Source of the DNA: Parcubacteria group bacterium
Lineage (GTDB): Bacteria; Patescibacteriota; Minisyncoccia; Phycocordibacterales; Zambryskibacteraceae
DNA length: 43,177 nt
Direction of reading: 5' to 3'
Assembly: GCA_028286565.1 (NCBI GenBank)
Contig: JAQBRH010000006.1
Span: forward strand, 1-43,177
Below the pieces are notes generated by a model, which was not told the DNA's origin, did no database searches, and was given only the letters and a program-made list of their open reading frames with translations. Both the position numbers and the translations under genes were made by a program. Of this stretch, positions 1 through 872 are shown one piece after another (positions within the stretch are counted from its first letter, which is position 1; every line of letters begins with the position of its first letter).

Positions 1-872
1 AAATCCGTTGATATCATGGGGAACACCAAAAGCGAAGGCAATTCACTGGCGCATTCCTGACACTGAAACACGAAAGCGTGGGTAGCGAACGGGATTAGAT
101 ACCCCGGTAGTCCACGCCCTAAACGATCTCTACTAGCTTTGGGAGGAATCGACCCCTTCCGAGGCGTAGCTAACGCGTTAAGTAGAGCGCCTGGGTAGTA
201 CGACCGCAAGGTTAAAACTCAAAGGAATAGACGGGGACTTGCACAAGCAGTGGATTATGCGGTTTAATTCGACGACAAACGAAAAACCTTACCAGGGTTA
301 GAAATCTACGTGAAGCCATTTGGAAACAGATGGCGTCCGCAAGGACTCGTAGACAGGTGATGCATGGCCGTCGTCAGTTCGTGATTTGAATTGTTCCCTT
401 AAGTGGGGTAACGAACGCAACCCTCGTTGCCAGTTACAAGTGTCTGGCGAGACTGCCCCGGTTTGTGCGCGTGAACCGATATGAATAATATTGGGTTCGC
501 GAATACAAACCGGGGAGGAAGGCGAGGATGACGCCAGGTCAGCATGTCCCTCTGATACCCTGGGCCACACGCATAATACAATCGCCGCTACAACGGGTCG
601 CGACGCCGCAAGGCTGAGCTAATCCTAAGAAAAGCGGCGCCAGTTCGGATTGGGGGCTGCAACTCGACCCCATGAAGCCGGAATTGCTAGTAATCGCAGG
701 TCAGCTATACTGCGGTGAATACGTTCTCAAGTCTTGTACTCACCGCCCGTCAACTCAAGGGAGATGGGAGTACCCGAAGTCCCGTTTATGCGGGCCTACG
801 GTAAGCTCATCGACAGGGAGTAAGTCGTAACAAGGCACGGGTAGCGGAAGCTGCTCGTGGAGTAATTCAATT
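1..872 (+). rRNA. rrs: 16S ribosomal RNA, 3' portion (5' end outside window)
   Basis: Conserved 16S blocks: GGATTAGATACCCCGGTAGTCC, AAACTCAAAGGAATAGACGG, GGTTTAATTCGACG, GTCGTCAG, AACGAACGCAACCC, GAATTGCTAGTAATCGC, CACCGCCCGTC, AAGTCGTAACAAGG, and helix 45 with its GGAA loop at 836-859. 3' end placed ~13 nt after h45 by analogy to E. coli. Confidence 0.97.

Follow-up and report, generated by a model that had tools for sequence, protein, structure and literature searches.

A conserved 16S rRNA tail lacking the anti-Shine-Dalgarno sequence, and a structured 16S trailer, across an order of Parcubacteria

The 16S rRNA 3′ end and its trailer

The window, the whole stretch of 43,177 nucleotides that was analysed, is an entire contig (C7) of a Parcubacteria genome of 666,698 bases in seven contigs, 97.6% complete. 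Positions 1-872 hold the 3′ part of a 16S rRNA gene, which, like all features of its transcription unit described below, lies on the forward strand; as the window is the entire contig and the gene runs off its start, the gene is truncated at the 5′ end. Window positions 1-872 aligned with positions 684-1533 of the 1533-position Rfam model SSU_rRNA_bacteria (RF00177) at 742.5 bits. Helix 45 (836-859) reads CACGGGTAGC-GGAA-GCTGCTCGTG, and its description in the initial annotation as a perfect ten-pair helix with a GGAA loop is borne out, with two of the ten pairs being G-U wobbles. A KsgA-family dimethylase is encoded in the genome (195 bits).

Most bacteria find the start of a message via a short tail of the 16S rRNA, the anti-Shine-Dalgarno (ASD). 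In this gene the bases directly 3′ of helix 45 (860-874) are GAGTAATTCAATTTG: a replacement tail, GAGTAATTCAAT (860-871), stands where GATCACCTCCTT is expected, and in the Rfam alignment GAGUAAUUCAAUU is placed opposite the model's GAUcACCUCCUUu. A scan of positions 855-1075, which include everything up to the terminator at 1043-1066, found no CCTCC, in agreement with the earlier reading of the tail, and hence no CCTCC-bearing exon in that range; a single 16S gene was found in the assembly, and with it no second copy carrying CCTCC. Inspection showed a short potential hairpin, TTCAATTTGAA (UUCA/UGAA, 866-876), whose pattern recurs with variation in many relatives. Of other factors searched for in the genome, a divergent bS21-like stretch scored 22.7 bits, below the Pfam cut-off, and Era gave sub-threshold GTPase matches with none above the cut-off, in line with the loss of era from most CPR bacteria (PMC10582724).

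Between helix 45 and the terminator, a variable hairpin is followed by a GTCGAT box and another hairpin; further on come an H-type pseudoknot, a GGAAAGAC-loop hairpin and, last, a motif of 25 bases (GAACGGAACAAAATAGAGAACGATA). The variable hairpin H1 (878-902) was delineated by inspecting the tails of the family and order, and the GTCGAT box (904-909) is conserved in relatives and also in members of the class that retain the ASD. RNAalifold supported both the second hairpin, H2 (909-938, loop of the CTCAATTGAG type), with compensatory changes at most of its variable pairs, and the GGAAAGAC-loop hairpin (966-983). The H2 loop of the window and its relatives is often palindromic (CTCAATTGAG, CTCGATCGAG, CCTTAAGG), which could permit RNA-RNA contact of two copies. 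The pseudoknot (937-965) pairs 937-939 with 951-953 and 942-948 with 959-965. In an anchored permutation test on 31 sequences chosen by eye, its stem 1 was Watson-Crick complementary in 25, against 4.9 with permuted partners, and 0 of 5000 permutations reached 25. This stem was not aligned by MAFFT, and a free search for the pseudoknot in each sequence did not discriminate from shuffles, with 9 of 49 sequences exceeding the 95% level, owing to an excessively large search space.

The 3′ strand of a leader-trailer processing stem (GAACGGAGCAGAATAGAGAACGATA, 1015-1039) was recognised by its reverse complement upstream of 16S in relatives and by duplex energies; the partner strand is known from these relatives, the leader of the source genome itself lying off the contig. 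Over 60 loci of the order, the duplex of a trailer with its own leader averaged −64.0 kcal/mol, compared with −49.5 for swapped and −46.4 for shuffled leaders, and long duplexes reach beyond the conserved motif. The leader of relatives holds, by inspection, a boxA-like motif (GTACTTTGAAA), and the 16S unit ends in an intrinsic terminator (AAAAGCCGCCCTCGGGCGGCTTTT, 1043-1066), with a terminator-like hairpin at the same place in relatives. Since the 3′ motif pairs with the leader, the region is the trailer of pre-16S rRNA, with a processing stem closing it. An unknown RNA gene fused to 16S was rejected on account of the same pairing, and RNase P RNA and tmRNA were rejected because both are encoded elsewhere in the genome. 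At the ASD-retaining locus L343 a trailer of the same kind follows an intact ASD, and the trailer therefore predates ASD loss. At ASD-retaining loci such as L343 and L337, a GGGAG of the trailer just downstream could pair with the CTCC of the ASD in the precursor.

These features also bear on whether the tail is interrupted by an intron, with a downstream CCUCC-bearing exon joined to it by cis- or trans-splicing. CPR rRNA genes often contain introns (PMC11270868), and the 16S genes of relatives carry insertions at two sites, both of which speak for such an arrangement. However, no CCTCC occurs between helix 45 and the terminator, no Rfam intron model matched positions 800-1500 even when a loose threshold was applied, the end of the element is formed by the 3′ strand of the leader-trailer stem as in a trailer, and other families have the same type of trailer behind an intact ASD (L343). 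Splicing is thus highly improbable, and we take the region to be a trailer.

No 23S gene was found in the assembly of the source genome. Genome G003 has 16S and 23S on one contig and one strand, separated by about 8 kb and not in one operon. A tRNA-Ile(GAU) gene is located at 1494-1569 of the window, downstream of the 16S terminator, and several relatives have a comparable tRNA after 16S; this placement is perhaps a remnant of a 16S-tRNA-23S operon.

Tails in the family, order and class

Comparison of the 16S 3′ end with relatives revealed that the CCUCC-less tail is kept across the order. GGAGTAATTCAA stands 3′ of helix 45 in 23 of 23 other family genomes read, and in other families of the order all 27 loci retrieved have tails without CCTCC, mostly with GGANYANTTCAA in its place; these 27 are the best matches of a query containing the tail and are slightly biased for that reason. 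Close variants of GGANYANTTCAA occur across the order in Nomura-, Zambryski-, Taylor- and Adlerbacteria, and a pattern scan of named genomes found, among the matches listed, Nomura-, Zambryski-, Taylor-, Adler-, Yonath- and Harrisonbacteria. Recurrence on this scale argues that the tail is neither a chance occurrence nor an assembly error. The truncation of the gene at the contig end could be taken as a sign of misassembly, of a chimera or of a pseudogene, but the same tail in 23 independent family genomes, with variants across the order, the intact helix 45, h44 region and Rfam score, and the covarying trailer structures leave an artefact with next to no probability. The initial annotation had already argued from the intact helix 45 against a degenerate or chimeric gene, and the family tails and the Rfam score uphold that argument.

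Among 392 genomes surveyed from the class, 83 of the 351 that lie outside the order carry exact GGATCACCTCC after helix 45, as does 1 of the 41 inside it. Helix 45 with any tail was detected in 238 of the 392, including 37 of the 41 of the order, so a missing ASD pattern alone does not prove loss in a given genome. The sole genome of the order with GGATCACCTCC (G159) has it on a 4-kb contig (C6, locus L341) with a different helix 45 and a foreign-looking 16S end, which is likely a contaminant; another 16S end of this genome, on its contig C2, is without CCTCC. The ASD has been lost in nearly all relatives checked across the order. Outside the order, tails grade from intact via GGATCACCTTCTTTCT, GGATCATCTCCTTTCT and GGATCACTTCTTATCT to GGATCATTTATTTTAG. 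As some families of the class keep GGATCACCTCC and others display this graded decay, the loss appears to have been stepwise and repeated.

Two further observations were made on 16S loci of relatives. At L052 (contig C3 of G199), pieces resembling a 16S end (GTAGCCGTAG and GGATCACCTCCTTTCAA) lie outside the 16S gene, downstream of its terminator, and contig C2 of G199 gives a second match to 16S. Insertions within 16S were seen in G002, G012, G016, G022, G028 and G029, with two recurrent sites near positions 244 and 329 of the query (window 500-872).

Gene starts and residual Shine-Dalgarno motifs

As gene start we used the first ATG of each simple open reading frame, and the counts for the source genome are without the small ends of C4 and C5. 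Between 20 and 4 bases ahead of ATG, TATAAT and TATACT dominate and Shine-Dalgarno (SD) motifs do not, the latter being near background upstream of genes genome-wide. Of 772 genes, 83 have a TATAAT-type hexamer beginning at −12, compared with no more than 21 for each of the other offsets between −25 and −7; G276 (30 of 205) and G320 (29 of 217) show this peak too, with far fewer at neighbouring offsets. This box at the ATG precedes 18.7% of head genes and 1.0% of internal ATGs. A −10 box at −12 is where it would be expected for transcription starting at the A of the ATG, and from this promoter position most first genes of transcripts appear to be leaderless. Genes inside operons carried an SD-like motif in 7.7% of cases versus 11.8% in the control, and many of them have starts at offsets of −4, −1 or +1 from the preceding stop, a spacing that would fit coupling or reinitiation. 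In the ASD-retaining genomes G427 and G503 the box at the ATG precedes 19.5% and 19.7% of head genes, in a comparison of ASD-plus with ASD-minus members that used pieces of 200-380 kb from few genomes, together with the genome of the window. Since class members that retain the ASD look similar in this respect, initiation of this kind probably came before ASD loss.

The tail strongly conserved across the order could itself serve a new SD system, in which mRNA motifs complementary to its UUCAA would be read. The corresponding motifs TTGAA and GAATT, however, have no peak upstream of ATG in G000, G276 and G320, and we consider a new SD system exceedingly improbable.

SD motifs have not vanished altogether. 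AGGAG or GGAGG at good spacing precedes 34 of 772 genes (~4.4%) where 16 would be expected from internal ATGs, and these residual motifs peak sharply at −11 and −10. The corresponding counts were 13 of 410 genes in G032 (5.8 expected), 13 of 206 in the ASD-retaining G427 (2.3 expected) and 8 of 44 in Escherichia coli (0.2 expected). The 34 carriers lie on C2, C4 and C5 and look mostly like lineage-specific open reading frames and lipoproteins; five full-length carriers were tested against Pfam, and a single one of them gave a match, to a Big_2 domain. One carrier lies between ftsA-like and ftsZ-like genes on C5. Such well-placed motifs run against our main model, as a ribosome without an ASD should not read them; they may have been acquired recently, be relics or be served by an unknown reader. 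The earlier claim that ribosomes made from this gene are incapable of classical SD pairing is supported by the conserved CCUCC-less tail, by the failure to find a second 16S copy or a CCTCC exon downstream, by SD motifs near background and by −10 boxes at the start codon, with the qualification that the roughly 4% of genes with a well-spaced AGGAG or GGAGG do not fit it.

These residual motifs would have a reader if the ASD had been relocated, with the trailer kept on the mature 16S rRNA and the UCCU of its pseudoknot pairing with the SD of leadered genes. UCC or UCCU is present in the pseudoknot of many members (CTCCTA at 950-955 of the window), and about 4% of genes keep AGGAG or GGAGG. Yet the UCC forms one strand of a stem that covaries, with AACU, AUCU or AUUC in its place in other members, and the retained motifs often extend to GGAGG, which has no full match to UCCUA. 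In two genomes with a UCCU-less trailer, SD motifs numbered 7 against 3.9 expected and 4 against 2.0, so that the excess is weaker and not clearly absent. A relocated ASD is, on balance, very unlikely. There is a small chance that, more generally, the trailer or its pseudoknot part stays on the mature small subunit, takes a role in start selection and reads the remaining SD motifs.

Interpretation and comparison with known systems

We hold it very likely that the window carries a working 16S rRNA gene of Parcubacteria (class Paceibacteria) in which a conserved, non-complementary tail (GGANYANTTCAA) has taken the place of the ASD, in genomes with SD-poor, leaderless starts. In this model the 16S gene forms its own transcription unit, consisting of a leader with a boxA-like motif, 16S, the structured trailer, the processing stem and the terminator, and the trailer would be removed by an RNase III-type step. 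A 30S or 70S ribosome would directly recognise the 5′ AUG of leaderless first genes, and many genes inside operons would be reached by coupling or reinitiation from the previous stop. SD-poor initiation probably came first, relaxing selection on the ASD, which would then have decayed stepwise in several families.

If this is right, a very large bacterial order makes its proteins without textbook SD pairing, and the wider class holds all stages from an intact to a fully lost ASD, which makes the order of events testable. SD-poor, leaderless-type initiation where the ASD is intact, in the genomes sampled, suggests that the use of the sequence was lost before the sequence itself. Gene callers that assume SD motifs should be applied with caution to these genomes, as should CCTCC as a marker of the 16S 3′ end.

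The initial annotation was right not to claim novelty for the missing ASD, since the absence of CCUCC has been reported for individual Parcubacteria-type genomes (PMC10783764). In the open-access literature searched, we found neither the order-wide extent, the conserved replacement tail and the trailer architecture nor leaderless initiation tied to these bacteria.

Among known systems, the processing stem resembles the RNase III-type leader-trailer stem of bacterial pre-16S rRNA in that its strands pair around 16S; the trailer described here differs in its GTCGAT box, H-type pseudoknot, own terminator and lack of linkage to 23S. Initiation of the Bacteroidota type likewise occurs in SD-poor genomes, but with an ASD that is intact and unused, whereas here it is gone, and ASD sequestration of that type is ruled out by the lack of CCUCC in the 16S gene; a closer parallel is offered by those members of the class that are SD-poor and retain the ASD. 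PMC6107228 reports 128 other organisms without a CCUCCU ASD, among them Flavobacteriia, Mycoplasma and Carsonella, where, as here, helix 45 is kept and CCUCCU is absent; these are unrelated lineages with sporadic or genus-level loss, and no CPR lineage was seen among the groups named. A further likeness is to the category iv genomes of PMC10783764, which include Candidatus Campbellbacteria and Wolfebacteria and combine a 16S tail without CCUCC with few SD-bearing mRNAs. The source genome shares the tail without CCUCC, in a variant typical of its lineage (23 family genomes and the order) and carried by the one 16S copy found in the 97.6%-complete assembly. Its 4.4% is a count of AGGAG and GGAGG, whereas the category's threshold of SD in <5.5% of mRNAs refers to an energy-based hybridisation. 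That study concerns single genomes; the present case extends over an entire order that shares a conserved replacement tail, and includes intermediate stages of decay in the class, the leaderless promoter signature and the structured trailer.
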